Positions 18,170 through 37,240 of a stretch of 64,000 nt of DNA are shown here, one piece after another (position 1 is the stretch's first letter; every line of letters starts with the position of its first letter). A program made the translations under genes and the position numbers. The notes under the pieces are model-generated. The model ran no database searches. It was not told the DNA's origin and saw nothing but the letters and a program-made list of their open reading frames with translations. Source of the stretch: Flavobacterium sp. 9 (lineage in GTDB: Bacteria; Bacteroidota; Bacteroidia; Flavobacteriales; Flavobacteriaceae); contig NZ_PEEU01000001.1 in assembly GCF_002754195.1 (NCBI RefSeq), positions 2,728,001 through 2,792,000 on the forward strand, read 5' to 3'.

Positions 18170-18194
18170 TTAAAAAAATTGTGGTTATTTAGTA

Positions 18195-18306: not shown

Positions 18307-18317
18307 ATATCAATCTT

Positions 18318-20324: not shown

Positions 20325-20350
20325 GATATTTTTCTTAATTCATTTTTATT

Positions 20351-20513
20351 AAATCGGGTGTTGCTTATGAGACTTCACCCGATTTAGAAACTCAACAAAA
20401 ACTTATTTTTATCCTTTTGGGATTATTTTTTGCCACCGATTAAAAGATTCCAAAAGATTTTTCTAACTAATTAACCATGATATAATCCATTAGAATCCTT
20501 TAAATCTGTGGCA
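20351..20513. repeat. Two hairpins in the GH31-GH97 gap
   Basis: AAATCGGGTG (20351-20360) pairs perfectly with CACCCGATTT (20376-20385). A second, imperfect repeat pairs TGCCACCGATTAAAAGATTC (20431-20450) with 20493-20513. The 282-base gap 20325-20606 shows no gene. The second repeat is of the 'AATCTGTGGCA' type found elsewhere in intergenic DNA. Confidence 0.7.
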
Positions 20514-20606
20514 TATATTTTTCTAATCTTTGACTAATTTTTCTCTCGCAGATTTGGCAGATTGAGCGGATTTTTAATTTTTAATTCTCAATTTTTAATT
20601 CTTTCT

Positions 20607-23006
20607 TTATTTTATCCACTCTGTTTTAAGAGTCGTTTTTCCTTGTAACGGGTTTGAAACTACGTCAAAATTGTTTCCGGATTTTGTAACTTTTACTTCT
20701 TTTACTGAATCTCCGTCTGGTAAAAATACTTTGGCTGTAGCCGAAGTTGTTTTGTCACTTGCATATACTTTTAATGTCAATTTACTCCAATCCATATCTT
20801 TTGTAGATTGTGCCAAAGCGATGTGTGGCAATGCGGTTCCGTCTTTTACTAAAACTACGATTGGCACTTCGCCAGCTTTGATTTTATGCCATCCGGATTG
20901 GTACACTTTTTTGGTTTGATAATCAATCCATGTTCCTTCCGGAAGGTAAACGTCTCTTTCTGTAACTTCTTCAAAAAGTGGTGCAACCAACATACTTGAT
21001 CCAAATAAATATTCATTGTCCACCAACCAAGCGCCCGGATCATTTGGATATTCTACAAATAATGCACGCATCATAGGTAATCCTTTTTGTGAACTTTCTT
21101 TCGCTTGAGCGTAGATATATGGCATTAATTCGTAACGCATATTATCTGCTTTTCTAAATCCTTCAAGGAAATCTTTGCTGTACAACCAAGGTTCGCGCGG
21201 AGGTTCTCCGTGGCTTCTTACGTGCGAAGTAAACATCCCGAAAGGTGCCCATCTTCTGTATAAATTCTCCGGTGATTTCGTTGCAAATCCTCCTACGTCA
21301 TGACTCCAGAAACTGAATCCGCTTAATCCTAATGAAAGTCCGCCACGTAATTCTGCCGACATTGCTCCATTTGAAGTTTCTGCATCTCCGCCCCAATGCA
21401 ATGGATAACGTTGAGATCCTGCCCAAGTACTTCTTGCCCAGATTAAAGTGTATCCTTTTTCTTTCTGAGTAATTTCGGCTACAGCCTTGTTGTATCTTAA
21501 CGGATATAAATTGTGTTCGTAAAAACCTGTTCTTCCTGAATGGTAAATTCCGTCTGGCGGAGCTGCTTCTCCAAAATCTACTTTGAAAACCGAAACGCCT
21601 TGGTCGAATAAATGTTTCAGTTTTGCCTGATACCAAGTTACAGTTTCAGGATTTGAGAAATCAAGAACGGCATCTTCATACGGAAGATTTCCTTTGCGAT
21701 CTCTTACGGCTAAATTCTTATCCATGATTTCGTTGAACAACGTATTCTTTGGTGAGAAATACGGCAATTGCCATAAACAAACATGAAATCCATCGTCTTT
21801 TAAATCTGACATCATTTTTTCGGCATCCGGGAAACGTGCTTTTGCAAACTCATAATTGTTTCTCCAATCTACATCAAACCAACCGGTATCAAAGTGAATT
21901 ACATCTGTTGGAATTTTATATTTGCGCAAATCTTTTGCTACTTCTCTTCCTTCTTTTTCAGAAAAATAAGTGATTCGGCTCATCCAGAAACCAAATGACC
22001 AAAGTGGTGGCATTGCAGCTTTTCCGGTTAAATCTGTGTATTGATCTAAAACGTCTTTTGGTTCTCCGATAAAGAAAAACAAATCGGCTTCGTCATCGCC
22101 AATATACATTTCGTTTGCACTTGAATAATATCTTCCAAAGTCAACTGTAATTGGTGTCGAATGGTGCATGAAAACTCCGTAACCGCGGCTGCTCATATAA
22201 AATGGAACGGGTTTGTACATCGTTTCATTCTGAATTCCGTTTGCGTCATCGGTCCATAAAACTACTTTTTGTCCGCGTTTGTTGAATTGTGTGAATGATT
22301 CTCCACAACCAAATATTTTCTCATCCGGTTCTAAGCTAAAAGCCGCGCCCATACTTCTTGAATAATCGCTATTTCTGCGTACATACGAGAACGGAAGTGT
22401 TGGTGTATAAGTGTTTTTAAAATCTGAATCGTGAAGTGTGCTTGTCAGTAATTTTCCGGTTTCATCGTAAATTTTTACGTGCCACGGTTTTGTCAAAATT
22501 TCTACTCTTCCGTGTTTGCTTGTATAACTGTGACCGCCTTCTATTTTAGAATATTTCCATAATTCAGGATGATTTGGCGCAACGCCATTAATCAACATTA
22601 AGGATTCTTTTTCAGGATGAAATTGTGGTCCTGAAGTCGTTTTAATTCGGATAGTTCTGTCTGAAACAAACTGAATCTGAAACGGTAATTCTGGTGAAGC
22701 CTGATATTCTGTTGTTGGAAATTCGTTTGCTTCAACAACATCTGGTTTCATCATCATATTGTTGAAAGCCTGACGCGTTTTATAATTATATCTCAGATAT
22801 TTTATGGTTCCTTTTCCTGTTGCAGGATCAAAATTTGTCAATTCATCGGCAAAATAAAAGGTGTTCAGATAATTCTGAAAATCCTTGCTGATATCTATCG
22901 GAGCATTTAGCACATCTGCGTTCTGAATTTGTGCCGATACTTTTGGCGTCAAAACAAATCCAAGCATGAAAGCTGAAAACAATGTGGTTAGTTGTGAGTT
23001 TTTCAT
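20607..23006 (-). CDS. GH31 family alpha-xylosidase
   Basis: This is a 799-residue protein from the ATG at 23004-23006, chosen because it begins a proper signal peptide (MKNSQLTTLFSAFMLGFVL); an upstream in-frame extension of 27 codons has no signal character. An N-terminal beta-sandwich (about 90-320) precedes the catalytic barrel with WSFGFWMSR, the nucleophile Asp477 in FKVDFGE, the acid/base Asp541 in HWGGDAET and SHDVGGF. The KVDFGE form is typical of alpha-xylosidases such as YicI and the Cellvibrio and Bacteroides xyloglucan enzymes. It removes alpha-1,6-xylose from the non-reducing end of xyloglucan oligosaccharides in the periplasm. The xylose is the substrate of xylA-xylB at the head of the same locus. 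No PA14 insert is evident. Confidence 0.9.
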   Translation of the reverse strand: MKNSQLTTLFSAFMLGFVLTPKVSAQIQNADVLNAPIDISKDFQNYLNTFYFADELTNFDPATGKGTIKYLRYNYKTRQAFNNMMMKPDVVEANEFPTTEYQASPELPFQIQFVSDRTIRIKTTSGPQFHPEKESLMLINGVAPNHPELWKYSKIEGGHSYTSKHGRVEILTKPWHVKIYDETGKLLTSTLHDSDFKNTYTPTLPFSYVRRNSDYSRSMGAAFSLEPDEKIFGCGESFTQFNKRGQKVVLWTDDANGIQNETMYKPVPFYMSSRGYGVFMHHSTPITVDFGRYYSSANEMYIGDDEADLFFFIGEPKDVLDQYTDLTGKAAMPPLWSFGFWMSRITYFSEKEGREVAKDLRKYKIPTDVIHFDTGWFDVDWRNNYEFAKARFPDAEKMMSDLKDDGFHVCLWQLPYFSPKNTLFNEIMDKNLAVRDRKGNLPYEDAVLDFSNPETVTWYQAKLKHLFDQGVSVFKVDFGEAAPPDGIYHSGRTGFYEHNLYPLRYNKAVAEITQKEKGYTLIWARSTWAGSQRYPLHWGGDAETSNGAMSAELRGGLSLGLSGFSFWSHDVGGFATKSPENLYRRWAPFGMFTSHVRSHGEPPREPWLYSKDFLEGFRKADNMRYELMPYIYAQAKESSQKGLPMMRALFVEYPNDPGAWLVDNEYLFGSSMLVAPLFEEVTERDVYLPEGTWIDYQTKKVYQSGWHKIKAGEVPIVVLVKDGTALPHIALAQSTKDMDWSKLTLKVYASDKTTSATAKVFLPDGDSVKEVKVTKSGNNFDVVSNPLQGKTTLKTEWIK

Positions 23007-23029
23007 TAGTTTAGTTTTTGTATTTCCTT

Positions 23030-23115
23030 CCTGCAAGGTTTTTTTCAACCTTGTAGGTTTTATATTGATGATGTAAACGTTTAACATACCTACAAGGTTT
23101 TGAAAACCTTGCAGG
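23030..23115. repeat. Paired palindromes between GH2 and GH31
   Basis: CCTGCAAGGTT...AACCTTGTAGG (23030-23057) and CCTACAAGG...CCTTGCAGG (23089-23115) are each hairpins. The two are also inverted copies of one another, so two alternative folds are possible in the 121-base gap. Confidence 0.8.
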
Positions 23116-23127
23116 AAAGATGCGTCG

Positions 23128-25623
23128 TTATTCTGCTGTAATTACAATTGTTGCTGGTTTTAATCCATTCGCTTTAGCGGTTAATTCTAATCTTCCTGTT
23201 TTATTTTCCGATTGAACTATAACTAAACATTTTCCGTTAAGCGCTGTATGTTTTGAACCTTTGTACGATTCGTAACTTACTGGATCTCCGCTGCAAACGC
23301 CTACAATTTTTCCGTTTCCTTTTAATGAAAAGTTGATTTCGTTATTGGCATTTGGAGCCAAAGTTCCTTTTGAATCTAAAATATCTACAGTTACAAATGA
23401 CAAATCATTTCCGTCTGCTTTGATGTTGCTTCTGTCTGCTGTAAGTTTTAAAGTTGATGGATTTCCGGCTGTTTTGATTTCGGTTTCCAGAACTGTTTTT
23501 CCGTCTTTACGGGAAATTGCTTTTAGTGTTCCGGGTTGAAAAGGAATTCTCCACATTACGTGTAAATCATCTCCTTTTTTACTGCGAACTCCAACTGATT
23601 TTCCGTTAAGGAAAAGTTCAACCTCATCTGCTTTATTGTAATATGCCCAAACATCTACGGTTTGTCCCACTTTCCAGTTCCAATGTGGGAAAATGTGCAG
23701 AACGGTTTTGTCTGTCCATTCGCTTTGATACATATAATAAACGTCTTTTGGGAAACCGGCTAAATCGACAATTCCGAAATATGAACTTACTGACGGCCAT
23801 TCATATGGAGTTGGTTCTCCGATATAATCGAAACCTGTCCAGATATACATTCCGGAAAGGAAATCGTATTTTTTAATTACTTTCCAAGTTGCTTCGTGTG
23901 TTGAACCCCAAGGCGTTTGAACCTGATCGTAAGCAGAAACGGTATTGCCGGGATTTCCTTTTGTGAATTTTTGATCCCAACTTACCGGCCATTTTTTTAT
24001 AGTATCTGAAACATTATCATAATAACCGCGGGTTTGTAATCCCGAAGTAGTTTCGGTTGCGATGAAAGGAATTCCAGGGAAATTTTCTTTATGATGTGCA
24101 TAAGTCTGATGTGCATAATTGTATCCGATCAGATCTAAAACTCCAGATTTTGCAAGAGGATTAAACTGCACATTCTTTTTTTCGAATTGTAATGTTACGT
24201 CATCAATATTCATATTCACCGGCGGATTCATCGCTGCGGTTAATGGACGTGTTTTATCATATTGACGTGTAATTGCGGCTAATTCTTTGGCTATAGCCAC
24301 ACCATTTTCGTTCCATTGTTCCGGAATTTCATTTCCAATACTCCAAACAAAAATACTTGGATGATTTCGGTCGCGAAGCAATTGATCTGTCAAATCTTTT
24401 TTGTGCCATTTGTCCCAATCATTTGCATAATCGTATTTGGTTTTGTTTTGTTTCCACATGTCAAATGCTTCATCCATTACAATGAAACCCATTTTATCAC
24501 AAAGGTCTAAAAGTTCAGGAGCCGGAGGATTATGTGAAGTTCTGATTCCGTTTACACCCATTTCTTTTAGGATTTCAAGCTGACGTTCGATGGCGCGTGT
24601 ATTGATTGCTGAACCTAAAGGTCCTAAATCATGGTGCATACAAACTCCTTTGATTTTGACTTGTTTTCCGTTAAGAATGAAACCTTTATCGACATCAAAT
24701 TTAAAATCTCTGATTCCGAAATTAGTTTTGTATTGATCTACAATTTTATCGTCAAGCGAAATTTCTGTAACTGCTGTATATAATTCAGGTTTTTCAACTG
24801 ACCATAAAATTGGCGTTTCAACTTCTGCCGATTGTTTTATGATTTGATTGGCGTTTGCTCCAATTGTTATATTTTGGGTAACCGATGTTACTTTGGTATC
24901 TTCTTTAAAAATAGTGGTTATTACTGTTGCTTTTTTTGAAGCTGTATTTTGGTTTTGAATTGTAGTTTCAAAACTTACCGAAGCTTTTTCGGCAGTAACT
25001 TTTGGCGTTGTCACATAAGTTCCCCATTGTGCAACATGCAATTTATCTGTGGTTTCGATCCAGACATTTCTAAAAATTCCTGATCCTGAATACCAACGTG
25101 AATTTGGTTGTTTTGAATTGTCAACCTTTACAATTATTTCGTTGTTTTTGTCTCCGTAATTTAAATACGGTGTCATGTTATATTGAAAACCGATATATCC
25201 ATTTGGACGTTTTCCTAAATAATGTCCGTTTACCCAGACTTCGCTGTTTCTGTAAACGCCATCAAAGATTACTGATATTACTTTACTACTATCAGAAGCA
25301 TTGATTTTGAAAGTTTTCTTATACCAACCTAAGCCTCCGTTAAGAGATCCGCCTCCATATCCGGCAGGACTTTTTTCATCAAACTTTCCTTCTATACTCC
25401 AATCATGCGGAACATTTAGGGTTCTCCATTTGGTTGAAATTCCAATAGTATCTTTGTCTGTTATACTATCATTTAAATGAAAACTCCAATCTGAATTAAA
25501 AGAAACTTTTCTATTATCGAAAGTATCTTCTTTTTTACTGCAAGAGTTCAAAAGGATAATTCCGATTAGTAATAATAATGATAAACCTCTATTTAAATAT
25601 TCTTTTATGCTATTCATATTCAT
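23128..25623 (-). CDS. GH2 family beta-galactosidase (lipoprotein)
   Basis: This is an 831-residue protein with a lipoprotein signal (IILLNSC, Cys28) followed by an acidic SKKEDTFD segment. The GH2 sugar-binding domain (about 40-200), immunoglobulin-like domain (about 205-305) and TIM barrel (about 310-590) appear in order. The barrel shows GVCMHHDLGPLG, the acid/base Glu432 in WSIGNEIPE and the nucleophile Glu524 in FIATETTSG. C-terminal beta domains follow (VDVWAYYNKADEVELFLNG, then a bacterial Ig-like segment). In xyloglucan loci GH2 removes beta-1,2-galactose from the L side chain, exposing xylose for GH31. A TATATTTG box and a palindrome upstream suggest an internal promoter starting at this gene. 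Confidence 0.9.
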   Translation of the reverse strand: MNMNSIKEYLNRGLSLLLLIGIILLNSCSKKEDTFDNRKVSFNSDWSFHLNDSITDKDTIGISTKWRTLNVPHDWSIEGKFDEKSPAGYGGGSLNGGLGWYKKTFKINASDSSKVISVIFDGVYRNSEVWVNGHYLGKRPNGYIGFQYNMTPYLNYGDKNNEIIVKVDNSKQPNSRWYSGSGIFRNVWIETTDKLHVAQWGTYVTTPKVTAEKASVSFETTIQNQNTASKKATVITTIFKEDTKVTSVTQNITIGANANQIIKQSAEVETPILWSVEKPELYTAVTEISLDDKIVDQYKTNFGIRDFKFDVDKGFILNGKQVKIKGVCMHHDLGPLGSAINTRAIERQLEILKEMGVNGIRTSHNPPAPELLDLCDKMGFIVMDEAFDMWKQNKTKYDYANDWDKWHKKDLTDQLLRDRNHPSIFVWSIGNEIPEQWNENGVAIAKELAAITRQYDKTRPLTAAMNPPVNMNIDDVTLQFEKKNVQFNPLAKSGVLDLIGYNYAHQTYAHHKENFPGIPFIATETTSGLQTRGYYDNVSDTIKKWPVSWDQKFTKGNPGNTVSAYDQVQTPWGSTHEATWKVIKKYDFLSGMYIWTGFDYIGEPTPYEWPSVSSYFGIVDLAGFPKDVYYMYQSEWTDKTVLHIFPHWNWKVGQTVDVWAYYNKADEVELFLNGKSVGVRSKKGDDLHVMWRIPFQPGTLKAISRKDGKTVLETEIKTAGNPSTLKLTADRSNIKADGNDLSFVTVDILDSKGTLAPNANNEINFSLKGNGKIVGVCSGDPVSYESYKGSKHTALNGKCLVIVQSENKTGRLELTAKANGLKPATIVITAE

Positions 25624-25645
25624 AGGATTATATTGTTTTGAAAAA

Positions 25646-25653
25646 CAAATATA
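25646..25653 (-). promoter_or_regulatory. Putative -7 box of an internal promoter before GH2
   Basis: The minus strand reads TATATTTG (consensus TAnnTTTG), ending 22 bases before the GH2 ATG. It is directly preceded by the palindrome at 25659-25691, where a -33 element would lie. Confidence 0.5.
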
Positions 25654-25658
25654 AACAT

Positions 25659-25691
25659 ACCGATAGGCGACTCTTTAAATCCCCTACCGGT
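25659..25691. promoter_or_regulatory. Imperfect palindrome over the -33 region of the GH2 promoter
   Basis: ACCGATAGGCG (25659-25669) and CCCTACCGGT (25682-25691) form an inverted repeat with a 12-base spacer. Its position relative to the -7 box makes it a candidate operator; it could instead be a hairpin of the SGBP-GH2 gap. Confidence 0.45.
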
Positions 25692-25746
25692 TGTTTACTA
25701 GTTTGAGGTAATTATGATTTTATTCTAAAACAAAACCGTAAATACT

Positions 25747-27120
25747 TTATGGAACTATATAATGAAAAACAAACCATTCATCTTTTCCTGCATCATATGA
25801 TGTTCCAAGCCAGATTCCTTTTTGAAGAAAATCTTTATTGTATGCTTTTACAACTTTAATAACACTTGTTGTTGGATTCATCCAGCTTGTTGCATTTTGA
25901 AGAAGTTTTTCTCCTCCTAAATTAATTTCGTTTGTCGCTGCATTTATCGTAAAAGTTCCTGTTGTGATTACACCATTTTGATTGCGGGTATAGTTAAGAG
26001 TTCCTCCCCATTGATCAAAACGTATCGATGAATTTCCTGCAATTGTTGCCCAATCATCATTCCATCCCCAATTGTACGAACTTGTAGAATTAACTGTCCA
26101 GCCTTTTCCTTTTCCAACCCAGTCAACAGGATTTCCGCCTGCATCCAGTTTCCAAACTCTTCCTGCTCCGGCTCCACCTGTTAACATGGTCAATAATTCT
26201 CCAGGTGCGAACGTAGGATTGAAACCTTCGTCAACAACTGGTTCTGTAACCGGAGGAACATAATTATCTGCATAATCTTTAGAAACAAAATTCCAGATGT
26301 ACCACCAAGGACCTTCGCTGTTGGTTCTTTTGACAGCAATTCTTAACTGATTTTCTGTTAGAGTTAATACTTTAATATTGTCATTCCAGTTACTTGCATT
26401 TGCAATATAATTATCCGGTCTAAGGATTGTTGTTCCTGTTGTTGTTAAAGTATGTGCATTGATGTCTAAGAAGTAAGATCCGTTTTCGATCGTTGTTCCG
26501 TCAGCTTCATGAACGGTCATAAATGGTCCTCCTTCAAGGCTGAATGTCATGTATCTTCCCCAGTGCATATCTGCATCTGTACTCGAGTTAGCGTTTCCTT
26601 CAGGTTCCCAGTTTGGAGTAAAATTACCCCATTCTACTGTTGTGCTTGGATCTGCATAAGACATTGCACCAGGAGCTAATCCATATTTACCATTGTCTGC
26701 TACCCAAGATTTCTTTTTACCAACTCCACCTGATAATGCGGTCCAAAGCGGATCATTAACATAGTTTAAGTTGTCTTGATTTACTGTAATTGTTACCGGA
26801 TCTAATGCAACAATACCACCTCCGGTTACTGCAGAAATTTTAATTGTGTAACTTCCTTTAAAGGCATATTTTACAGTTTCAACCGCTTTGCTGGATTTTC
26901 CTGTTCCATAATCCCAGTTCAATACAACTCCGGGAGTTGTGTTTTTCATTATTACGGTATTTCCGCCTGGATCTGCGGTTAAATCCTGAGTAATTTCAAA
27001 ATGTATATCCGCTTTATCCATTGGCGTATCCAAAGAATACGTTTCCGGAGAACAAGATGATACTAGCATTATTGCTGCTAACATCAAAAATGATGTAACT
27101 AATAATTTAATATTTTTCAT
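25747..27120 (-). CDS. Surface glycan-binding lipoprotein (SusE/F position)
   Basis: This 457-residue lipoprotein has its lipobox at MLVSSC (Cys23). Residues about 35-115 form a PKD-like Ig domain (NWDYGTGKSSKAVETVKYAFKG). Two related modules follow, each opening with a similar motif: LWTALSGGVGKKKSWVAD at about 125 and LLTMLTGGAGAGRVWKLD at about 308. Both are rich in exposed Trp and Tyr (WGNFTPNWEPEG, SSYNWGWNDDW), as expected for a glycan-binding platform. It lies directly downstream of susD, the usual place for surface glycan-binding proteins of these loci. It probably holds xyloglucan at the cell surface. It has no enzyme motif. The exact family cannot be named from sequence alone. Confidence 0.8.
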   Translation of the reverse strand: MKNIKLLVTSFLMLAAIMLVSSCSPETYSLDTPMDKADIHFEITQDLTADPGGNTVIMKNTTPGVVLNWDYGTGKSSKAVETVKYAFKGSYTIKISAVTGGGIVALDPVTITVNQDNLNYVNDPLWTALSGGVGKKKSWVADNGKYGLAPGAMSYADPSTTVEWGNFTPNWEPEGNANSSTDADMHWGRYMTFSLEGGPFMTVHEADGTTIENGSYFLDINAHTLTTTGTTILRPDNYIANASNWNDNIKVLTLTENQLRIAVKRTNSEGPWWYIWNFVSKDYADNYVPPVTEPVVDEGFNPTFAPGELLTMLTGGAGAGRVWKLDAGGNPVDWVGKGKGWTVNSTSSYNWGWNDDWATIAGNSSIRFDQWGGTLNYTRNQNGVITTGTFTINAATNEINLGGEKLLQNATSWMNPTTSVIKVVKAYNKDFLQKGIWLGTSYDAGKDEWFVFHYIVP

Positions 27121-27142
27121 TTCTTTCCTTTTTTAGTTAAGA

Positions 27143-28717
27143 TTACCAACCTGCATTTTGTTTCAAAACTCCTCCAGATAATGTGATCTGTGTATTCGGA
27201 ATTTGTTGTAGTCCTTTTGTAGCTTGGATTTTAGCTGCAGAAATTGTTTTTGTTCCGGCAACTCCACCACTTAATAATGTTGTAGTTTCTGCAATTGTAG
27301 TAGAAGCTTTTCCAACACCCTGACGTAATAAATCCCAATATCTAACTCCTTCAAGAGCAAATTCCAGATGTCTTTCGTTCAGTATATTATCAGCATTTAC
27401 TGGTAAAGCTGTAAAATTCTCTTTGTAAGCTCTTCTTCTCACATCATCAAAATAAGTCTGTGCGCTTCCGCTTCCTAATTCAGCAGCCATTAATAAAACA
27501 TCTGCATATCTTAACACAACATAATCCTGAAATTGTCCGATATCCCAATATTGACTTCCCATAACTAATGGCATATCTTTTCCGTCTTTGTCAACCATTG
27601 GAGAATATTTCTTGTTGTAATATCCTGTGTATTCTCTTTGATTATTGATTTTATCGAATTTTATTTTTTCTTCGTCGATTCCAATTACACTTGCTGCACG
27701 TCTTGTATCTGTTGCGCTGTAAGCTTTCCATAATTTAGAGTTTACTGTAACTCCCCAACCACGTCCATAAGGGTAAGATGAGAATTCTCTCATCCCGAAC
27801 ATTACCATCCAATGGTTTCCATCTGTGTTTCCGCTATAGTCACTTGTATAAGAGTATTTCACAGAAAACACGATTTCTTTATTGCTTTCTCCGGCATATT
27901 TATCCACTGAAGCTGCTGGCCATAATGTAGAAAAATCATCTACTAAACCGTGACCACTTGATGCAATAACATCTTCAAGATGTCCTAAAGCTTGTGTTTT
28001 AGTTACTACTCCTGCTAAATCTGTTTTTCCGTAATATCCTGTGTAGTATAAATAAACACGTCCCAGTAAAGATTTTGCTGCCCATTTTGTAATACGTCCG
28101 CTTGTTGTAGCATTATAAGCAACGGCTGGCAAATTGTTTGAAGCGAAGACTAAATCTTCTGCGATTATTTTGTAGATTTCTTCAGGTGCTGCTTGTGGTA
28201 CATTTTCAGAAGAAGGTGATGTTAACAATGGAACACTTCCCCATAAACGTGCCATTTCAAAATATAAATAGGCTCTGATAAATCTAGTTTCAGACGTATA
28301 TGTATTCTTCAAAGCTGTATCACCTTTCCAGTCAATCTGATCCATTTTTGATAAGAAAATATTACAACGATAAATTGCTTTATAATAACCAATCCAGTTA
28401 CCGTTAAGCATATCAACATCTGAAGGTGAGCGTGAAATATCAAACTCATCGATTGCAGCATAATTGTAACCATCAGAATTTCCGGTTCCGCCGAAACAAT
28501 CGTCAGACATTACTTCACTGATTACAGGAACTCCCAAACCGCTGGCTCCGGTTGCAACTTGCAAACCATCGTAACAACCTACTAATGCTGAATAAGCATC
28601 ATCTGTTGTTTTATAAAAATTTGTATCTGTTTGTTGTACTAAAGGTTCTGTTTCTAAACTACAAGAACCCAATGACAATAGTGTCAAACAGAAAATATAT
28701 AGATAGGTATTTTTCAT
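27143..28717 (-). CDS. susD: SusD-like outer-membrane glycan-binding lipoprotein
   Basis: This 524-residue protein has lipobox LSLGSC (Cys19) and the SusD N-terminal pattern (SLETEPLVQQTDTNFYKT). TPR-like helices follow (TRFIRAYLYFEMARLWGSVPLL), then the RagB/SusD C-terminal region with VLRYADVLLMAAEL and NERHLEFALEGVRYWDLLRQG. It caps the SusC channel on the cell surface and delivers oligosaccharides to it. Its start lies 11 bases downstream of the susC stop, and SGBP follows 22 bases after its own stop. The name susD is used in the generic sense; glycan specificity is inferred as xyloglucan from the neighbouring enzymes. Confidence 0.95.
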   Translation of the reverse strand: MKNTYLYIFCLTLLSLGSCSLETEPLVQQTDTNFYKTTDDAYSALVGCYDGLQVATGASGLGVPVISEVMSDDCFGGTGNSDGYNYAAIDEFDISRSPSDVDMLNGNWIGYYKAIYRCNIFLSKMDQIDWKGDTALKNTYTSETRFIRAYLYFEMARLWGSVPLLTSPSSENVPQAAPEEIYKIIAEDLVFASNNLPAVAYNATTSGRITKWAAKSLLGRVYLYYTGYYGKTDLAGVVTKTQALGHLEDVIASSGHGLVDDFSTLWPAASVDKYAGESNKEIVFSVKYSYTSDYSGNTDGNHWMVMFGMREFSSYPYGRGWGVTVNSKLWKAYSATDTRRAASVIGIDEEKIKFDKINNQREYTGYYNKKYSPMVDKDGKDMPLVMGSQYWDIGQFQDYVVLRYADVLLMAAELGSGSAQTYFDDVRRRAYKENFTALPVNADNILNERHLEFALEGVRYWDLLRQGVGKASTTIAETTTLLSGGVAGTKTISAAKIQATKGLQQIPNTQITLSGGVLKQNAGW

Positions 28718-28728
28718 CTTTTTATTTA

Positions 28729-31700
28729 TTAAAGTTTAACATTTAATCCTAACATGAATGTTCTTGGTCGTGGATAGTATCCTACATCAACTCCTGATGA
28801 AAACTTTTGATCATTATTTGATGAACCAAAACCAATTTCAGGATCCATACCATCATATTTCGTAAAAGTGTAAAGGTTTAATACGGAGAAATAAACTCTA
28901 AACTGACTTGCAAAAAATGGTTTTGATTGTTTCATTTTTGCTAAATCAAATCCTAATGTTACGGTACTGATTCTTAAGAAATCCCCATCCTGAACATACA
29001 AATCCGAAAATTGTGTAAAGTTTCTATTGTCTTCTGTTACTCTTGGAACTGTGTTTGAAGAACCTTCTCCGTGCCAACGATCTAATATTGCAGAAGTATA
29101 ATTTCCGTAAGCTCCAGCTTGATTTCTATATGATTGTACAATTTGATTTCCTGCTACACCATTTGCCATTAATGAAAAATCAAAAGCTTTGTAATTTGCT
29201 GACAAAGAGAATCCGTAAGTAAAATCAGGATTTGGTTTACCTATACTTGTTTTATCAGAAGCATCGATTTTATCATCTCCGTTAGTATTCACATAAATAA
29301 GATCTCCGGGAGCTGCAGTTGGTTGTAATACTACGCCACTTGCTGATTTATAATTATCGATTTGTGCTTGATTTTGAAAAACACCACCTGTTTTATATCC
29401 CCAGAAATAACCTAAAGGTTGTCCGTTTTGTGCTCTGTAGAACTCACCTGAATTATCATAAAGTTCATTGTTTAATCCGTGAATGATACCGTCTGTAGTA
29501 GGTATTTGACCAACTGTGTTTTTATTATAAGCTCCGTTTGCACTAATGCTATAATTAAAATCTCCAATTTTGTTTTGGTAATTTAAACTTAACTCAACTC
29601 CTTTATTTACAACATCTCCACCATTGATATAAGGTGCATCTGCTCCGGCTGTTGCCAAAATTGGTGCTAAAATCAACCAGTCTTTATTTGTTTTTTGGTA
29701 AACATCAAAAGTAACATTCAAGGCATTGTTTAAAAATCTTGCATCAAAACCAAAATCAATTTGTTCTGAAGTTTCCCATTTTAAATCAAGATTTGATAAT
29801 CTGTCCGGATAAGCGCCCGGCGTTAAAACACCTTCTGTATCACCAAAAATATAATTTGTATTATTTGATTTTATAGTTGACAAATATTGGAATGGTCTTG
29901 CATTTTGATTTCCAACCTGTCCCCAACTTCCTCTTAATTTAAGGAAATTAATAACGTTTGAATCTCTCAAAAACGCTTCATTTGAAGCTACCCAACCTGC
30001 AGATACTGATGGGAAATAACCCCATTGATTTTCTTTAGAAAAAATAGAAGATCCATCCATTCTAAAAGTTGCATTGATCAAATACGTTTCTTTGAAATTG
30101 TAATTTAATCTTCCAAAATAAGACATTCTTTTAGTCTCTTGTTTTAGACCGCTCATAGATATTTTTGCACCATCTTTGTTAGTTGTATTGTCTAACCAAG
30201 CGTGTTCTAAATCATTAAAAACTGAATCGGCATTTGTAACACTTACTGATGTTCCATCATAATTAATAGAGGAAGTTCCTAACATTGCTTCAAAATGATG
30301 ATTCTCGGCAGCATTAAATTTATACGTCAATAAGTTATCCCAAGTCAAGGTTTTACCTTTGTTCATGTTTTGATTTACTTTATCAAATGCGCTGTTTGCA
30401 TAAATAGATAATCTGTAAACCGGAAGGTAAGAATGTCCTTCGCCAGCATAATAATCAAGTCCTAAAGTAGTTCTGAAGGTTAAGTTTTTTATTGGTTCAA
30501 TTTGCAAATAAACATTACCTAATAATTTTTGATTATTACCTTCATTTTGATTGTTGTATTGCATCAAAGCATAAGGATTTGCTACTCCTGCAAGCCAAGG
30601 CTCTGTATTATTTGTGGTATCATAATAATCGCCTTTAGAATCATACATTGGCAATAATGGCGTTGTTTGAAAAGCACCTCTTAATGCATTATTGTATTGA
30701 TTTCCAACTCCAATTCCGTTTTTATTGATGTAAGCAAAACTCAAATTTTCACCAAAAGTAACTACGTCTTTATATAATTTATGTTCTGAATTGAATCTGA
30801 AATTATAACGCTCGTAGTTTGATAAATCTTTACCTCCAACAACTCCTTCTTGTCCTAAATAAGACAAAGATGCTGAGTAAACAGAAGTATCTGAACCACC
30901 TGAAGCTCCAAATGCGAAATTTTTGGTAGCTGCATTATCCGTAAACATTTTATCCATCCAATTTGTTCCGCTTCCTAATCCTGCAATTTGAGCATTGGTG
31001 AAATATGGATTTTTACCAGAGTTTACTGCTGCTTCATTTAGTATTGTTGCATATTCAGTTGCATTCAATAAATCAACTTTTCTCGCTACTGATTGTACAC
31101 CATAATATTGATCGAATGTCATTTGTCCTGCAGCGCCCCTTTTACCTTTTTTGGTTGTTACCAAAACAACTCCGTTTGAGGCCTGAGAACCATAAATTGC
31201 AGCTGATGCAGCATCTTTTAAAACCGAAATAGATTCAATATCTGAATTGCTTAAATAAGAAATATCACTTGTCAATATTCCGTCAACAACATATAACGGG
31301 CTGCTTCCGCCTGTTGAACCAACACCTCTAATTACAACATTCAATCCTTCTCCCGGCTGTCCTGAAGTAGATGTAACCTGAAGTCCGGCTGCTTGTCCCT
31401 GAAGTGCTTGTAAAGCATTTGTAGTATTGGTTTTTGCAAGATTCTCTCCGCTAACCTGAGTCACGGCACTTGTTACAAGTGTTTTCTTTTGAGAACCGTA
31501 TCCAATAACGACAACTTCTTTAAGATCTGCCGCTTCTGTTTGTAAAGTAACATTAATCGTTTTTTGAGTTCCAACGGTTACACGTTGCGCTTTAAATCCC
31601 ATAAAACTGATTACAATTACGCTGCCTTCTTTTGCTTCCAACTTAAAGTTTCCATCAAAATCTGTTGATGTTCCCGTTTTGGTTCCTTCAATAGCTACGG

Positions 31701-31860
31701 TAGCACCCGGAACTCCCATACCATCTTCTGCTGATTTTACGTTTCCGCTTATAACCTGGGATTGCTGTTGCGCAAAACCGGACTGCATCGTAAATACACT
31801 AAGCAACAGCGCCATGCAGAACGAGAGCGATGTTGTTTTAAGACAATGTTTGCTTTTCAT
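28729..31860 (-). CDS. susC: SusC-like TonB-dependent outer-membrane transporter
   Basis: This is a 1043-residue protein from the ATG at 31858-31860, where a signal peptide begins (TTSLSFCMALLLSVFTMQSGFAQ); the longer open frame upstream overlaps xylA and lacks signal character. Order of domains: carboxypeptidase-D-like beta-sandwich (about 45-125, GNVKSAEDGMGVPGATVAIEG), plug (VVVIGYGSQKK through LYVVDGILTSDISYL) and a long beta-barrel ending MLGLNVKL. It imports oligosaccharides using energy from TonB-ExbBD. The 46-base gap to xylA has no obvious terminator, so the pentose genes and the transporter are probably on one transcript. Confidence 0.95.
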   Translation of the reverse strand: MKSKHCLKTTSLSFCMALLLSVFTMQSGFAQQQSQVISGNVKSAEDGMGVPGATVAIEGTKTGTSTDFDGNFKLEAKEGSVIVISFMGFKAQRVTVGTQKTINVTLQTEAADLKEVVVIGYGSQKKTLVTSAVTQVSGENLAKTNTTNALQALQGQAAGLQVTSTSGQPGEGLNVVIRGVGSTGGSSPLYVVDGILTSDISYLSNSDIESISVLKDAASAAIYGSQASNGVVLVTTKKGKRGAAGQMTFDQYYGVQSVARKVDLLNATEYATILNEAAVNSGKNPYFTNAQIAGLGSGTNWMDKMFTDNAATKNFAFGASGGSDTSVYSASLSYLGQEGVVGGKDLSNYERYNFRFNSEHKLYKDVVTFGENLSFAYINKNGIGVGNQYNNALRGAFQTTPLLPMYDSKGDYYDTTNNTEPWLAGVANPYALMQYNNQNEGNNQKLLGNVYLQIEPIKNLTFRTTLGLDYYAGEGHSYLPVYRLSIYANSAFDKVNQNMNKGKTLTWDNLLTYKFNAAENHHFEAMLGTSSINYDGTSVSVTNADSVFNDLEHAWLDNTTNKDGAKISMSGLKQETKRMSYFGRLNYNFKETYLINATFRMDGSSIFSKENQWGYFPSVSAGWVASNEAFLRDSNVINFLKLRGSWGQVGNQNARPFQYLSTIKSNNTNYIFGDTEGVLTPGAYPDRLSNLDLKWETSEQIDFGFDARFLNNALNVTFDVYQKTNKDWLILAPILATAGADAPYINGGDVVNKGVELSLNYQNKIGDFNYSISANGAYNKNTVGQIPTTDGIIHGLNNELYDNSGEFYRAQNGQPLGYFWGYKTGGVFQNQAQIDNYKSASGVVLQPTAAPGDLIYVNTNGDDKIDASDKTSIGKPNPDFTYGFSLSANYKAFDFSLMANGVAGNQIVQSYRNQAGAYGNYTSAILDRWHGEGSSNTVPRVTEDNRNFTQFSDLYVQDGDFLRISTVTLGFDLAKMKQSKPFFASQFRVYFSVLNLYTFTKYDGMDPEIGFGSSNNDQKFSSGVDVGYYPRPRTFMLGLNVKL

Positions 31861-31906: not shown

Positions 31907-33226
31907 TTAATATGCGTTCGAAATAATCTGTTCGAATAATTCCTGTCTTCCGCTAAGGGGTTGAGGTTCTCCACTTGCACGGGCAATTTTGCTAAGATCT
32001 TCAAGAGATAATTCTCCGTTTTCGAACTTCGCCCCGTTTCCACTGTCAAATGAACTGTAACGTTGTGTGCGTAATTTTTTGTAATCTGTATTTTGTAGTA
32101 TCTGATCTGCGCAGATTAATCCTCTTGCAAAAACATCCATTCCTGAAATGTGTGCAATGAATTTATCTTCTAAATCGATTGAATTTCTTCTCACTTTTGC
32201 GTCAAAGTTTACACCGCCGCCCTGAATTCCTCCACCTTCAAGAATCACCAACATTGCTTGTGTAACTTCCTGAAGATTTATTGGGAATTGGTCTGTGTCC
32301 CAACCATTTTGATAATCTCCACGGTTTGCATCGATGCTTCCTAACATTCCGGCATCAACCGCAACTTGCAATTCGTGCTCAAAAGAATGTCCGGCAAGAG
32401 TTGCGTGGTTTACTTCAAGATTCAATTTGAAATCATTTTGAAGTCCGTATTTATTAATGAAACCTAATGAAGTTGCAGCATCATAATCATATTGATGTTT
32501 GGTAGGTTCCATTGGTTTTGGCTCAATCAGGAAGTTTCCTTTAAAACCTTCTTTGCGAGCATAATCTTTACAAGTATTCAAGAATCTTCCCAAATGGTCT
32601 AATTCTCTTTTCATGTCTGTGTTTAACAAACTCATATATCCTTCGCGTCCTCCCCAGAAAACATAATTTTCTCCGCCAAGTGCAATAGTTGCATCGATTG
32701 CGATTTTTGCCTGAGCTCCTGCATAAGCCAAAACATCAAAGTTTGGATTCGTCGCAGCACCGTTCATATAGCGAGGATTACTGAATAAATTTGAAGTTCC
32801 CCACAACAATTTAATTCCTGATTCTTGTTGTTTTTGTTTTGCATATTCAACCATTGTCTGAATACGAGTTTCAAATTCTGCCAATGTTGGCGCATCATCT
32901 ACAACATCAACATCATGAAAACAATAATATGGCAAGCCTAACTTTGTCATGAATTCAAAAGCGGCGTCCATTTTGTCTTTTGCTCTTAAAATGACATTCT
33001 CATTTTTATCCCAGGAAAATGTTTCAGTTGGAGCTCCAAACGGATCTCCTCCTGTGTTACATAACGTATGCCAGTACGCCATTGAAAAGCGCAAATGCTC
33101 TTTTAATGTTTTTCCCGCAACGATACGATTTTCATCATACCATTTAAAAGCTAGTGGATTATCACTTTCTCTTCCTTCGAACTTTATCGTATCGATGTTT
33201 TTAAAATATTGATTAGTTGTGCTCAT
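31907..33226 (-). CDS. xylA: Xylose isomerase
   Basis: This 439-residue protein, the usual class II length, contains the family signatures [29 protein letters not shown] and [17 protein letters not shown]. These hold metal-binding Glu, His and Asp residues. The enzyme interconverts D-xylose and D-xylulose in the cytosol, using divalent metals. Its start is 2 bases after the xylB stop, so translation is probably coupled. It directly precedes susC, which links the catabolic step to import of the polysaccharide that supplies xylose. Start at the ATG at 33224-33226. Confidence 0.97.
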
Positions 33227-33228: not shown

Positions 33229-34722
33229 TTATTGTTCTATTTTAATTTGACTTTTCCATTCTTGATATAAATCCTGATATTGACTTGTCAGGATTTTATT
33301 AGGTTCAATTCGGTCTAAACATTGCAATCCCTGAAAAGCTTCGTCCAGCGAATTGTAATATCCTAAACCAAAAGCAGCGCCTCTTGCGGCACCTTCTGCT
33401 CCTGAAGTATTGTATAATTCTAAAGTAGTTTGTGTAGTATTAGTGAAGATTTCTCTAAAAACCGGACTTAAAAACAGGTTTGAATTTCCTGCTCTAACCA
33501 CAGTTCCAGAAACTCCAACTTCTTTCATAACATCAAAACCGTAATTCATGGCAAACACAATTCCTTCGCAGGCAGCGCGCACTAAATGTGATGGTTGATG
33601 AATATTGAAATTTAAATTCTGGATTCCCGAAGTTGCATTTTTGTTATTGAAGATTCTTTCTACACCATTTCCGAAAGGATAAAAACGAAGTCCGTTACTT
33701 CCTGCTTCAACTTTTGCAGCTTCGGCATTTAGTTTTTCATAGGCGATTAAATCAGTTCTGTCAACAGACATGATTTTGCGCAACCATTGGTATAAAATTC
33801 CTGAACCGTTAATGCATAACATAACGCCGTTTCGTTTTTCGACTTCTGTATTATTGACGTGTAAAAAAGTGTTGATTCTATTGTGTTTGTCGTAAACATC
33901 CTCATCGCTTACGGCATAAACTACTGCCGAAGTTCCGGCTGTTGTAGCAATTTCTCCAGGTTTCAAAACATTCAATGATAAAGCATTGTTCGGTTGATCT
34001 CCTGCTCTGTAGGTTATTTTTGCATCGGGATTTAATCCTAATTCTTGTGCTATTTCTAAGTGAATTGTAGCTTGAATTCCAAAATTTGAAACTATTTCCG
34101 GAATAATATCCGATGATAATCCCATTTGAGAAAGGATTTTCGTTGCCAATTTTCCTTCTGGGAAATTCCATAAAGCGGCTTCTGATAAACCTGAAGTACT
34201 TATTTGTGCCACTTTCGATAATTTGGCTGCAATAAAATCCCCCGGAAGCATCATATATTTTGCTTTCGCGAAAATTTCAGGCTCATTGTCTTTTACCCAT
34301 TTTAGTTTTGAAGCGGTAAAATTTCCCGGGCTTCCTAAAATTTGCTGCTGACAATTTACGGATCCAATTTTAGCATAAATTTCATCTCCGATACTTGCAG
34401 CGCGACTGTCACACCAAATAATCGAAGAACGAACGGGATTCAGATTTTCATCGGTCAAAACCAAACCATGCATTTGATAGGCAATTCCAATTCCGGCAAC
34501 TTTCTTTAGATCAATATTTGATTTCGAACCTAATTGTTTGATTCCGTCTTTTACAAATTGCCACCAGGATTCCGGATCTTGTTCTGCCCAACCGAATTTT
34601 GGAGCAACAATTGGCATTTCAAAATCAGGAACACTAATTGCTCCAATAGTTGTTCCTTTCTCTGCATCAAATACAGATAATTTTATCGAAGAGCTTCCTA
34701 AATCAATTCCTAAAAAAAACAT
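33229..34722 (-). CDS. xylB: Xylulokinase (FGGY family)
   Basis: This 497-residue sugar kinase starts [19 protein letters not shown], the phosphate-1 loop of the actin-like ATPase fold. It carries the FGGY features [15 protein letters not shown], the [11 protein letters not shown] loop and the C-terminal [11 protein letters not shown] region. It phosphorylates D-xylulose to xylulose 5-phosphate for the pentose phosphate pathway. It is the first gene of the long minus-strand locus. A two-fold symmetric operator-like motif lies 65-92 bases upstream of its start codon, and the divergent Nudix regulators start 390 bases away. Confidence 0.95.
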
Positions 34723-34763: not shown

Positions 34764-34814
34764 ACTTATAGTCAAACTGAACTTATCTTATGGTTATTTT
34801 GACTACAAGTGTAA
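34764..34814. promoter_or_regulatory. Putative operator upstream of xylB
   Basis: The 28-bp motif at 34787-34814 reads CTTATGGTT, four A/T bases, then TGACTACAAGTGTAA. It is two-fold symmetric around half-site ACTTRTRGTY. An extra half-site ACTTATAGTC lies at 34764-34773. The same motif is found at 36966-36993. The remaining sequence of the 390-base gap 34723-35112 is AT-rich with no gene; a near-consensus TTAATTTG box precedes the plus-strand regulators. Confidence 0.65.
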
Positions 34815-35112
34815 AACATTTTTTCTATATTAACAAAATATTAGGTTTATTTTTTTTCATTTCTGATTATTCAATCTTGATTTTTATGAATACGTCAAAG
34901 AAGTCATTAAAATGGAATAAAAAAATATTGAAAAATTAACGATTTAGCGATTTGACAATCAGCCATTTAAGAATGATTATTTTAAAATCTGATTTTTAAG
35001 GATATCACAAACAATTGATTGTCAGAAAATTATTGCGTTAAGAAAAATATAAATCTTAGATAAAGACAACTATTCATTTTATTTATTTAATTTGTCAAAA
35101 TTTAAATAGCAT

Positions 35113-35829
35113 ATGGTTAAAAATGTAGCCGACGATTCTGCTTTAAAAAGCGAGCAAACCGCAATGAATGCGATCACAATTGACTGTGTCATATTTGGAT
35201 TTGATAAAGGAAGTCTGGAAGTGCTTCTGGTACAACACGGAGAAGGTATTAGTAAAGGAAAATGGGGGCTTCCGGGAGGATGGATCTATAAAAAAGAAAG
35301 TACTGATAATGCCGCGCACCGTTTATTGAATGAACTTACCGGGCTTGATAATATTTACTTAGAGCAACTGAAAGCGTTTGGAGATCCGGATCGTTTCCCG
35401 CTTCGACGCGTTATCACGATTGGTTATTATGCCTTGGTAAAACGTGAAGATTATAACATTAAAGCTGGTTTTACAGCTTCGGATGCACAATGGTACAAGA
35501 TTAATAGCATTCCGGATTTGATTTATGATCACAACGAAATTCTTGCTTATAGCTTAAAACATCTTCGAAACAGAGTTAGACAAGCTCCGATAGGATTTAA
35601 TCTTTTGCCTGAAAAATTTACTTTATTGCAATTGATGCATTTATATGAAGAGGTTTTAGGAATCGAAATGGATAAATCTAATTTCAGACGAAAAATTCTG
35701 CACATGAAATTATTGGTCGAATTAGATGAAAAGCAACAAGATGTTTCACACAGAGCTGCCAAATTGTATAAATTCGATCCGGCAATTTATAAGAAATTGA
35801 CTGAAAAAGGATTTAACTTTGAATTTTAA
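35113..35829 (+). CDS. Nudix-type transcriptional regulator 1 (NrtR/AraR-like)
   Basis: This is a 238-residue protein. Residues about 20-150 form a Nudix fold (ITIDCVIFGFDKGSLEVLLVQ, GKWGLPGGW). Its Nudix box reads ESTDNAAHRLLNELTG, so the catalytic RExxEE glutamates are mostly lost and hydrolysis is unlikely. Residues about 155-238 form a winged-helix domain (FTLLQLMHLYEEVLG, NFRRKILHM). This is the layout of NrtR-family regulators, which include the arabinose repressor BtAraR of Bacteroides. The divergent position opposite xylB-xylA and the XyG locus suggests control by a pentose-related ligand. Its stop overlaps the start of the second regulator by one base (TAATG). Confidence 0.85.
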   Translation: MVKNVADDSALKSEQTAMNAITIDCVIFGFDKGSLEVLLVQHGEGISKGKWGLPGGWIYKKESTDNAAHRLLNELTGLDNIYLEQLKAFGDPDRFPLRRVITIGYYALVKREDYNIKAGFTASDAQWYKINSIPDLIYDHNEILAYSLKHLRNRVRQAPIGFNLLPEKFTLLQLMHLYEEVLGIEMDKSNFRRKILHMKLLVELDEKQQDVSHRAAKLYKFDPAIYKKLTEKGFNFEF

Positions 35830-36563
35830 TGACATTTTTACCTTCTAAAAACACTTCGGAAACCGATAACAATACGACTGCAAATACAAAATCAGTTATA
35901 GACGGCATTTCGATCGACTGTGTTATTTTTTCTTTTGATAAAAAAAATCTTGAGGTTCTTTTAGTAAAACATGCTATAGGACAAAGCATAGGAAAATGGG
36001 GGCTTCTTGGCGGTGATCTGGAACTGGAAGAAAGTATTGATAATGCTGCACTGAGGATATTGTTCGAACTCACCGGTCTCGAAAATATTTATCTGGAACA
36101 GCTAAAAGCGTTTACAGATCCTGATCGTGTAAGCAACGCGAGAGTTATTACTATTGGTTATTACACGCTGGTCAACCGGGAAGATTATAATATTAAGGCA
36201 AGTGAATCTGTAATTGAAGCAAAATGGTTTAAAATTAATGAGATTCCGGATTTAATATTTGACCATAACGAAATTCTGCAATTTAGTTTGATGCAATTGC
36301 GCAATAGAGTTCGTCAGGCTCCGATAGGGTTTAATTTATTGCCTGAAAAATTCACCTTATTACAATTAATGCATTTGTATGAAGAAATTTTAGGAATTGA
36401 ATTAGACAAATCAAATTTCCGCAGAAAAATTCTTCACATGAAATTACTCGTTTCGCTTGAAGAAAAACAACAAGATGTTTCGCATAGAGCTGCCAAATTA
36501 TACAAATTCGATCCTGCGATTTATAAGAAACTAACCGAAAAAGGATTTAATTTTGAATTTTAA
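35829..36563 (+). CDS. Nudix-type transcriptional regulator 2 (NrtR/AraR-like)
   Basis: This 244-residue paralogue of the preceding gene begins in its stop codon. The Nudix-like domain (about 25-155) again has a degenerate box (ESIDNAALRILFELTG). The winged-helix domain is nearly the same: 84 of the last 88 residues match regulator 1, while the Nudix parts differ much more. Both proteins should therefore read the same DNA sequence but may sense different ligands, or form heterodimers. A hairpin terminator follows 7 bases after the stop. The ATG overlapping the upstream stop is the natural start given the coupling. Confidence 0.85.
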   Translation: MTFLPSKNTSETDNNTTANTKSVIDGISIDCVIFSFDKKNLEVLLVKHAIGQSIGKWGLLGGDLELEESIDNAALRILFELTGLENIYLEQLKAFTDPDRVSNARVITIGYYTLVNREDYNIKASESVIEAKWFKINEIPDLIFDHNEILQFSLMQLRNRVRQAPIGFNLLPEKFTLLQLMHLYEEILGIELDKSNFRRKILHMKLLVSLEEKQQDVSHRAAKLYKFDPAIYKKLTEKGFNFEF

Positions 36564-36570
36564 ATAAAAA

Positions 36571-36597
36571 AATACCCGAAGAAAATCTTCGGGTATT
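36571..36597. terminator. Bidirectional terminator after the Nudix pair
   Basis: AATACCCGAAGA (36571-36582) pairs with TCTTCGGGTATT (36586-36597) around a 3-base loop, with A/T runs on both sides. It serves the plus-strand regulators and the convergent peptide gene. Confidence 0.85.
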
Positions 36598-36610
36598 TAT
36601 CATTTTATTT

Positions 36611-36844
36611 TTAAGGAATACACACGATTATTACATTACAATAACCTCCTACAATTCCCGGAAACTTATTAGGATCTTCTGTTCCTGAATTCGCTGCAAC
36701 TCCATTTCCGCTTGGACAAATCGAAGTTGGCACACCATTTCTCGGACCACAAACGGTTCCTAATGTTCCACCGTTAATATTTTTCATTTCTTCTTTTGAA
36801 AGCCTGCCAAATTTTTGAGCAAGCTTCATGGTTTGTTTTTCCAT
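36611..36844 (-). CDS. Double-glycine-leader peptide (bacteriocin-like precursor)
   Basis: This is a 77-residue peptide. The N-terminal leader contains LSKEEMKNINGG, the conserved leader of Bacteroidota GG-type natural-product and bacteriocin precursors, and ends at Gly25-Gly26. The predicted 51-residue core is Gly/Pro/Asn-rich with four cysteines (32, 43, 69, 75) that could form two disulfides, and ends NVIIVCIP. Such leaders are normally cut by the C39 peptidase domain of an export ABC transporter; none lies in this window. The Met at residue 6 is an alternative start. It is a single gene between a terminator and a copy of the xylB operator motif located 121 bases upstream. Its activity is unknown. 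Confidence 0.8.
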   Translation of the reverse strand: MEKQTMKLAQKFGRLSKEEMKNINGGTLGTVCGPRNGVPTSICPSGNGVAANSGTEDPNKFPGIVGGYCNVIIVCIP

Positions 36845-36942
36845 AATTTCTTGGGTTTAATTGTTAGCAAAAAAATAGACATTCTCGTTTTTTACATACA
36901 AATCCTGCGCACAGATTTCAGTAAAAAAACGATAATGAAAAT

Positions 36943-36993
36943 TTAAAACCATAAAACAAATTATACTTATGGTTTAAATGACTACAAGTATAA
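36943..36993. promoter_or_regulatory. Second copy of the xylB-type operator motif
   Basis: 36966-36993 reads CTTATGGTT, TAAA, TGACTACAAGTATAA. It matches 34787-34814 at all positions except the A/T spacer and one purine. The wider 33-base element (36961-36993) begins TTATAC and ends GTATAA, extending the symmetry. A further TTATGGTTTTAA-like half-site lies inverted at 36943-36954. It is upstream of the peptide gene and 346 bases from lepA. The rest of the 495-base gap 36845-37339 shows no gene. Confidence 0.65.
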
Positions 36994-37240
36994 TCATATT
37001 TGGTTAAACCGACAATTATTCGCACAAAAATGCACATTTATCAAACAAAAGTAAGTTGAAGTATTTTTTTGACAAACAACAAATCAAACCAACGCATTAA
37101 TAAAAACATTCTGCAAGGTTTTGCTTTAAACTACTAATCCATTATTTGCTAATTATGAACATTTTAAAACTTTAAAATGAACTTTCTGCCTTCAAAATTC
37201 AAAATCGAGCAACTACATTCCACAATCCAAAACTTTGCGC

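Follow-up and report, generated by a model that had tools for sequence, protein, structure and literature searches.

A shared operator-like motif may join xylose and xyloglucan genes to a Gly-Gly-leader peptide gene in Flavobacterium sp. 9

The window analysed here, a stretch of 64,000 nucleotides from Flavobacterium sp. 9 (contig NZ_PEEU01000001.1, positions 2,728,001 to 2,792,000), holds two copies of a 28-bp motif, one before the xylulokinase gene xylB and one before a small gene for a peptide with a Gly-Gly (GG) leader (Table 1). An earlier note on this DNA had pointed out the repeated motif and the two Nudix-type regulators, here called NrtR1 and NrtR2, whose genes indeed lie between the copies, and had proposed that these regulators bind both sites, which would place the peptide gene in a pentose/xyloglucan regulon. 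On the minus strand xylB is followed by xylA and by a long run of genes in the order susC, susD, a protein without Pfam match, the glycoside hydrolase (GH) families GH2, GH31, GH97, GH3, GH39, GH3 and GH5, a SASA esterase, GH43 and GH95. We read this run as a xyloglucan-type polysaccharide utilization locus, and its strand and gene order suggest that it is co-transcribed with xylBA.

Table 1. Features of the two regulated promoters, the genes between them and their predicted targets (positions in the window).
Feature	Position	Strand	Basis
Same-strand run behind xylBA	4136..31860	-	family searches
xylA, xylose isomerase	31907..33226	-	family searches
xylB, xylulokinase	33229..34722	-	best match TIGR01312 XylB, under that model's cut-off
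Extra half-site ACTTATAGTC, some two turns of the helix away from the first	34764..34773	+	locus conservation
28-bp site before xylB: 25-bp imperfect palindrome (34786-34810) and overlapping -7 box	34787..34814	-	scans; conserved among relatives
-33 box TTTG of the xylB promoter	34834..34837	-	promoter comparison; presumed -33 consensus
-7 box TACACTTG of the xylB promoter; fits TAnnTTTG except at one position	34806..34813	-	promoter comparison; available part of PMC9723704
NrtR1, Nudix-like sensor and winged-helix DNA-binding regulator, XylR-like	35113..35829	+	Pfam NUDIX, NrtR_WHD, AraR_C
NrtR2, NrtR1 paralogue with near-identical DNA-binding domain and diverged sensor	35829..36563	+	Pfam; comparison
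Terminator-like stem-loop between nrtR2 and the convergent peptide gene	36570..36598	both	2 found against 1.5 expected in shuffles
GG-leader peptide, 77 residues: leader of 26 and core of 51 with four Cys	36611..36844	-	NCBIfam leader; pN/pS
Extra half-site AACCATAA between peptide promoter and peptide gene, opposite orientation	36947..36954	+	variable among loci
28-bp site before the peptide gene: palindrome (36965-36989) and overlapping -7 box	36966..36993	-	scans; conserved upstream block
-33 box ATTG of the peptide promoter, within the second conserved block (37007-37034)	37013..37016	-	promoter comparison; block conservation
-7 box TATACTTG of the peptide promoter	36985..36992	-	promoter comparison

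The motif, CTTATGGTT-N4-TGACTACAAGTRTAA, is matched without mismatch at both sites, on the plus strand and in intergenic DNA. With up to 3 mismatches allowed, these are the only matches in the window, where 100 shuffles gave none, and the only ones in the whole genome (6.33 Mb, a single contig), where a reversed control pattern gave none. Dozens of copies, coding DNA included, had been named beforehand as the outcome that would speak against a shared operator; the scan returned two intergenic sites. Outside the N4 linker these agree at 23 of 24 positions, at a spacing of 2.2 kb. A chance repeat was set aside on the shuffles and the reversed control, and a dispersed repeat on the count of two copies in the genome. 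Looser patterns were not above their reversed controls, and many weaker sites were rejected as well: the looser palindrome at up to 3 mismatches had 13 places genome-wide against 20 for the control, a second looser scan, both strands together, had 8 against 14, and the two next-best places of the palindrome (2 mismatches each) fall inside open reading frames, which leaves the two reported sites as the only ones of note. The two-fold symmetry that had been described for both sites is real but imperfect, the arms matching, as read from the sequence, at 7 of 10 positions on the peptide side and at 6 of 10 on the xylB side. Further half-sites lie close by, as the earlier note had it. That on the xylB side is CTTATAGTC or CTTATGGTC in 73 of 80 nrtR1 loci (of 118 found, the 80 with the highest NrtR1 similarity), and that on the peptide side is the more variable of the two.

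The occurrence of the motif follows one clade of regulators. The site beside nrtR1 is present in 80/80 loci at up to 2 mismatches, which was also the cut-off in a survey of 121 genomes of the genus where membership of the NrtR1/NrtR2 clade was set at E<1e-100; genomes and loci are mutually related, so the counts are not independent. Thirty-one of the 121 genomes have the motif, all of them among the 32 with the clade, and none of the other 89 has it. No motif was found in the 22 genomes that have distant NrtR proteins only (at most 45% identity among the matches listed, with 4 of the 22 having none listed). Genomes and loci with a single regulator keep the association: G103 has NrtR1 alone and both sites, L065 and L093 have NrtR1 alone and keep the site, and G108 has one site and a single NrtR2-type protein, typed by its start and by its place before lepA. 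In G118 neither site adjoins the clade's regulator gene. Outside the genus we compared 25 loci with NrtR relatives of 44-55% identity, and 6 of them, with relatives 45-49% identical, contain seven ACTT...AAGT palindromes at up to 3 mismatches, six directly upstream of the regulator gene and the seventh upstream of a neighbour; the genome rate (13 in 6.33 Mb) predicts about 0.2, though base composition may differ. The six loci (L133, L135, L136, L137, L140 and L151) show what is apparently an operator class for this NrtR branch. Several neighbour genes at the loci outside the genus read as glycan-use genes by inspection.

The genes that the sites precede in relatives point the same way as those in the window. 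Among the 80 loci the neighbour of nrtR1 is a full-length xylB in 28 and a xylB fragment in 2, and 50 have no xylB there; in all five inspected loci without full-length xylB the divergent gene is susC. Elsewhere the site stands before a major facilitator superfamily sugar transporter accompanied by xylBA (L112), before GH97 (L119), GH2 (L114) and a GH43 with a β-xylosidase C-terminal domain (L110), and, in L108 and L047, before a secreted protein that we read as a GH74-like xyloglucanase, the L047 protein by inspection; in Pfam the L108 protein matches Vps10 and a sorting tail, with BNR under the cut-off. Judged by these family assignments, the other putative targets in relatives are mostly xylose/xyloglucan-type genes.

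The leader of the peptide resembles NCBIfam NF047798 (leader_Chryseo, 'bacteriocin-like protein'), with a score of 21.3 bits that is slightly below the cut-off of 23.5, and the family of the whole peptide is small, with 14 protein clusters in a database of 5.8 billion proteins. The 14 peptide sequences taken from loci have the same kind of leader, 26 residues in 14/14 when counted from the aligned Met, and two types of core with four Cys each, type A (10 peptides, 49-51 residues, 51 in the window) and type B (4 peptides, 43 residues). The ratio of non-synonymous to synonymous polymorphism (pN/pS) is below 1 in 45/45 type A pairs (mean 0.23) and in 6/6 type B pairs (mean 0.07), and since it is so in all pairs, the peptide is by this measure a real, constrained protein under purifying selection. 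The type B core occurs in L026, L071, L073 and L116 with the same leader kind, place and operator, as if the core had been exchanged or had strongly diverged. Strong purifying selection within each core type would suit a product that is a signal, or a surface or accessory factor of polysaccharide use, as would the finding that no immunity or exporter gene was seen adjoining the peptide gene, whose neighbours are nrtR2 and lepA; the GG leader, the core of 43-51 residues with four Cys, the patchy occurrence and the two core types resemble instead the bacteroidetocins and class II bacteriocins. A non-antibacterial role is in our view quite possible, although we lean slightly away from it. Three C39-type proteins with frames of more than 700 residues are encoded elsewhere in the genome.

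NrtR1 and NrtR2 are alike in plan, with matches to NUDIX, NrtR_WHD and AraR_C above the Pfam cut-offs in both, that is, an N-terminal Nudix-like part and a C-terminal winged helix. The best match of NrtR1 in the PDB, and the best solved relative of NrtR2, is BtAraR (BT0354) of Bacteroides thetaiotaomicron (E 2.5e-53 for NrtR1). The genome has six NrtR winged-helix matches in total; a more distant NrtR protein, 41% identical to NrtR1, is encoded near this locus, about 5 kb to the left of the window (G000:C1:2722535-2723191). NrtR1 and NrtR2 are identical at 79/83 positions in the winged-helix domain and at 98/155 in the sensor part, and, given near-identical winged-helix domains, both proteins are expected to read one operator. 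Residues were compared in 80 NrtR1 sequences (79 of the 80 loci and the window) and 74 NrtR2 sequences (73 loci and the window), the remainder having been filtered out or lacking the gene. NrtR1 and NrtR2 have the same most frequent residue at 12/12 of the DNA-contact positions of BtAraR that were checked; relative to BtAraR, Lys179, Asn181 and Arg205 are kept, while Arg180 is replaced by Ser or Pro, Lys184 by Arg and Lys204 by His. The arabinose-contacting residues of BtAraR are Arg34, Arg86 and His131, according to the available part of PMC4666351. Arg86 and His131 are kept, and Arg34 is replaced by His in 80/80 NrtR1 and 74/74 NrtR2 sequences; in NrtR1, Trp takes the place of Phe49 in all 80 sequences and Tyr that of Phe129, where NrtR2 has Phe. 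We set L-arabinose aside as the effector on this difference in the sensor pocket: the change of Arg34 to His suggests that the effector is probably not arabinose, and the Tyr or Phe at position 129 that it may differ between NrtR1 and NrtR2.

Mean identity to the window's protein is 79% for the NrtR2 sensor and 93% for its DNA-binding part; for NrtR1 the values are 96% and 93%, inflated by the selection of loci on NrtR1 similarity. This suggests one main sensor and one changing sensor on a common operator. The same figures could be taken to mean that NrtR1 alone controls both sites and that NrtR2 is a decaying or re-purposed paralogue of no importance here, since the NrtR2 sensor varies far more than its own DNA-binding part, the NrtR1 sensor is at 96%, an inflated value, and the sites are retained in G103, L065 and L093, where NrtR2 is absent. 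However, the DNA-binding domain of NrtR2 is as conserved as that of NrtR1, and the motif is kept in G108 beside the NrtR2-type protein alone, and we find control by NrtR1 only rather unlikely.

The 28 bp resolve into two overlapping elements, a 25-bp imperfect palindrome, ACTTRTRGTY-N5-RACYAYAAGT, and a promoter element, TAYACTTG, that reads towards the regulated gene; the outer GTRTAA of the 28 bp most likely belongs to the -7 box of that promoter. In a comparison of 83 nrtR1-side sites (80 loci, the window, G103 and G109) with 14 peptide-side sites, what we take to be the -33 box lies 19-20 nt upstream of the -7 box and reads TTTG in 82/83 of the former and ATTG in 13/14 of the latter. The promoter geometry is identical at both sites, and the half-site GACTACAAGT is kept in 14/14 of the peptide promoters compared. 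TAYACTTG is close to the flavobacterial -7 consensus TAnnTTTG, which the available part of PMC9723704 places at -12 to -5, and transcription is thus expected to start near 34801 for xylB and near 36980 for the peptide gene, inside the operator, where a bound repressor would mask both -7 box and start site. In L057 and G091 both half-sites are intact despite an altered -7 box, so the palindrome is itself conserved, independently of the box. The site might be taken for a positive element, or for the promoter variant of a special sigma subclass, instead of a repressor operator, in that part of its conservation is the -7 box and in that 3 of the 6 promoter motifs of Flavobacterium psychrophilum vary around TAnnTTTG, as far as the same paper is available. 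We consider this improbable: the conserved palindrome extends past the expected start, which is unusual for an activator, it occurs only with the NrtR clade among the 121 genomes, the half-sites stayed where the -7 part changed, and BtAraR releases its operator DNA on L-arabinose, as repressors do (PMC4666351, available part).

The peptide is encoded in 6 of the 121 genomes, always at this locus, and 6/6 have this NrtR clade and the ACTTGTAGTC half-site upstream. The gap before lepA could be measured in 78 loci (lepA is absent from the stretch of L099 and of L047, which were excluded); 11 of these have both peptide and half-site and 67 have neither. A lepA tree with 81 rows, made by a quick method and with 30 of 78 inner branches weakly supported, requires at least 12 changes in the presence of the peptide, which behaves on this account as an accessory cassette at one chromosomal place. 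The named records nearest to the window on this tree, like those nearest to its NrtR1, belong to Flavobacterium. Peptide and operator lie on one segment of about 600 bp, and their joint presence is for that reason partly a matter of linkage; the conservation of the site is stronger evidence than co-presence. In 12 aligned sequences upstream of the peptide gene mean pairwise identity is 0.86 over the 28-bp site and 0.60 over the region; the block at 37007-37034, with the -33 box, is the only other stretch to equal the site (0.87). That block contains TTTGTNCGAATAATTGTCG on the minus strand, without another genome match at <3 mismatches, and is perhaps the site of a further regulator. Two conserved stretches upstream of the peptide gene were scanned for as possible shared elements: for TTTGTNCGAATAATTGTCGNTT there is no further match at <3 mismatches (4 matches, 2 in the control), and for TCTGTGCGCAGGATTT no further genome match at <2 mismatches (likewise 4 matches, 2 in the control). 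TCTGTGCGCAGGATTT lies at 36900-36915 on the minus strand, within what should be the 5' leader of the peptide mRNA. The site on the peptide side might instead be left over from a duplication of the xylB promoter, or act on lepA, without controlling the peptide. This would fit the near-identity and closeness of the two sites, but is very improbable, since linker, -33 box, flanks and the direction of the third half-site are not the same on the two sides (the differing flanks set aside a recent duplication) while each side largely keeps its own -33 box and half-sites, since the -7 and -33 boxes are oriented towards the peptide gene, and since the half-site before lepA is missing from 67/67 loci that have no cassette, with the sequence just before lepA kept in the three compared.

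We consider it probable that both sites are operators of a XylR-like NrtR pair, with sugar-released repression of the xylose/xyloglucan operon and of the peptide gene. The proposal that the two regulators share an operator and that the peptide gene belongs to the regulon thus draws support from comparative genomics, through clade co-occurrence, targets, geometry and single-regulator genomes. In the scheme that we infer, for binding, effector and direction of control as well as for export and any antibacterial role, dimers of NrtR1 and/or NrtR2 would sit in the absence of sugar on the palindrome, over the -7 box and start of both promoters, and the occupied operators would keep the operon and the peptide gene repressed. 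A pentose signal derived from xyloglucan, presumably D-xylose or a close derivative, would then enter the Nudix-like pocket and release both promoters. The peptide would be produced alongside the feeding machinery, cleaved at Gly-Gly and exported, perhaps through one of the cell's C39-type ATP-binding cassette (ABC) exporters. Repression with release by a pentose signal is the most likely mode because -7 box and start lie within the reach of the operator and because BtAraR binds as an apo-dimer and is released by L-arabinose.

Several points weigh against this reading of the sites as sugar-released operators. G096 is the sole genome with the clade that lacks the motif at up to 2 mismatches genome-wide; it carries a single NrtR2-type gene, and a search of the surrounding 14 kb with up to 6 mismatches allowed gave no site either. 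In L109 the site stands before a short-chain dehydrogenase gene (829-1754) with an unclear link to pentose use, and in L047 the second site serves the GH74-like gene and not a peptide. L099 has a weak site (5 mismatches; 7624-7651) at the peptide position and no detected peptide; this site is perhaps a relic or belongs to a short transcript. TAYACTTG differs by one base from TAnnTTTG, and the -7 box is changed in L057 and G091. To these are added the observation that no exporter or immunity gene was seen adjoining the peptide gene, the shared segment of peptide and operator, and the relatedness of the species sampled.

Flavobacterium is common in soil and on plants. If the preferred reading is true, the bacterium may release the peptide upon finding xyloglucan, and feeding on a plant glycan would form a single regulated programme with the competition against neighbours. 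It is tempting to speculate, with more doubt than conviction, that the system is a food-triggered weapon, in which paralogous repressors with different sensor pockets act on only two promoters, the peptide is released only while xyloglucan is eaten and protects the extracellular breakdown products, and the peptide-operator cassette is swapped at one site across Flavobacterium. As far as could be searched, little has been described of how bacteriocin-like genes are controlled in Bacteroidota, and the tie of glycan sensing to a secreted peptide by one operator and two regulators is a simple, testable hypothesis; if it holds, the same reading of promoters might assign conditions to other GG-leader peptides. 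A duplicated repressor with one operator and two sensors would also be a clean test case for the split of ligand specificity after duplication.

In a partial literature search at the level of titles and abstracts, we found, besides the work on Bacteroides AraR and XylR, no published NrtR/xylose motif in Flavobacteria and no glycan-regulated Bacteroidetes bacteriocin. Relative to this literature the regulon link to a GG-leader peptide appears to be new, while the family of the regulators and its part in pentose control are known. On the peptide side, the leader brings the product near the NF047798 leader_Chryseo peptides, but as a whole it belongs to its own small family of 14 clusters, found at this locus in each of the 6 genus genomes that have it. 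Bacteroidetocins have, in the available part of PMC6671954, a GG leader of 15-16 residues, at least 2 Cys in a mature peptide of about 42-48 residues (35-50 in the discussion), and genes adjacent to those for an ABC exporter/peptidase, a membrane protein and a thiol oxidoreductase. The peptide described here is likewise a small Cys-containing GG-leader peptide of Bacteroidota, with four Cys. Its core has 43 residues in type B and 49-51 in type A. Its leader has 26 residues, and none of those three genes was seen adjoining. On the regulator side, BtAraR binds as an apo-dimer to a semipalindrome before sugar operons and is released by L-arabinose (PMC4666351, from the part available). NrtR1 and NrtR2 share its domain plan; they differ from it in the half-site, which is GTGT there and ACTTRTRGT here, in the pocket, where NrtR1 has His for Arg34 and Trp for Phe49, in the changed contacts Arg180, Lys184 and Lys204, and in the peptide gene as a further predicted target. 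XylR (BT0791) of the Bacteroides xylRBAE operon is an NrtR-family protein predicted for, and clustered with, the xylose genes (PMC3878776 and PMC4666351, in their available parts). The regulators of the window, too, are clustered with xylose genes and have sites before them, a likeness by description to a protein known there by prediction, whereas here the regulator is duplicated.

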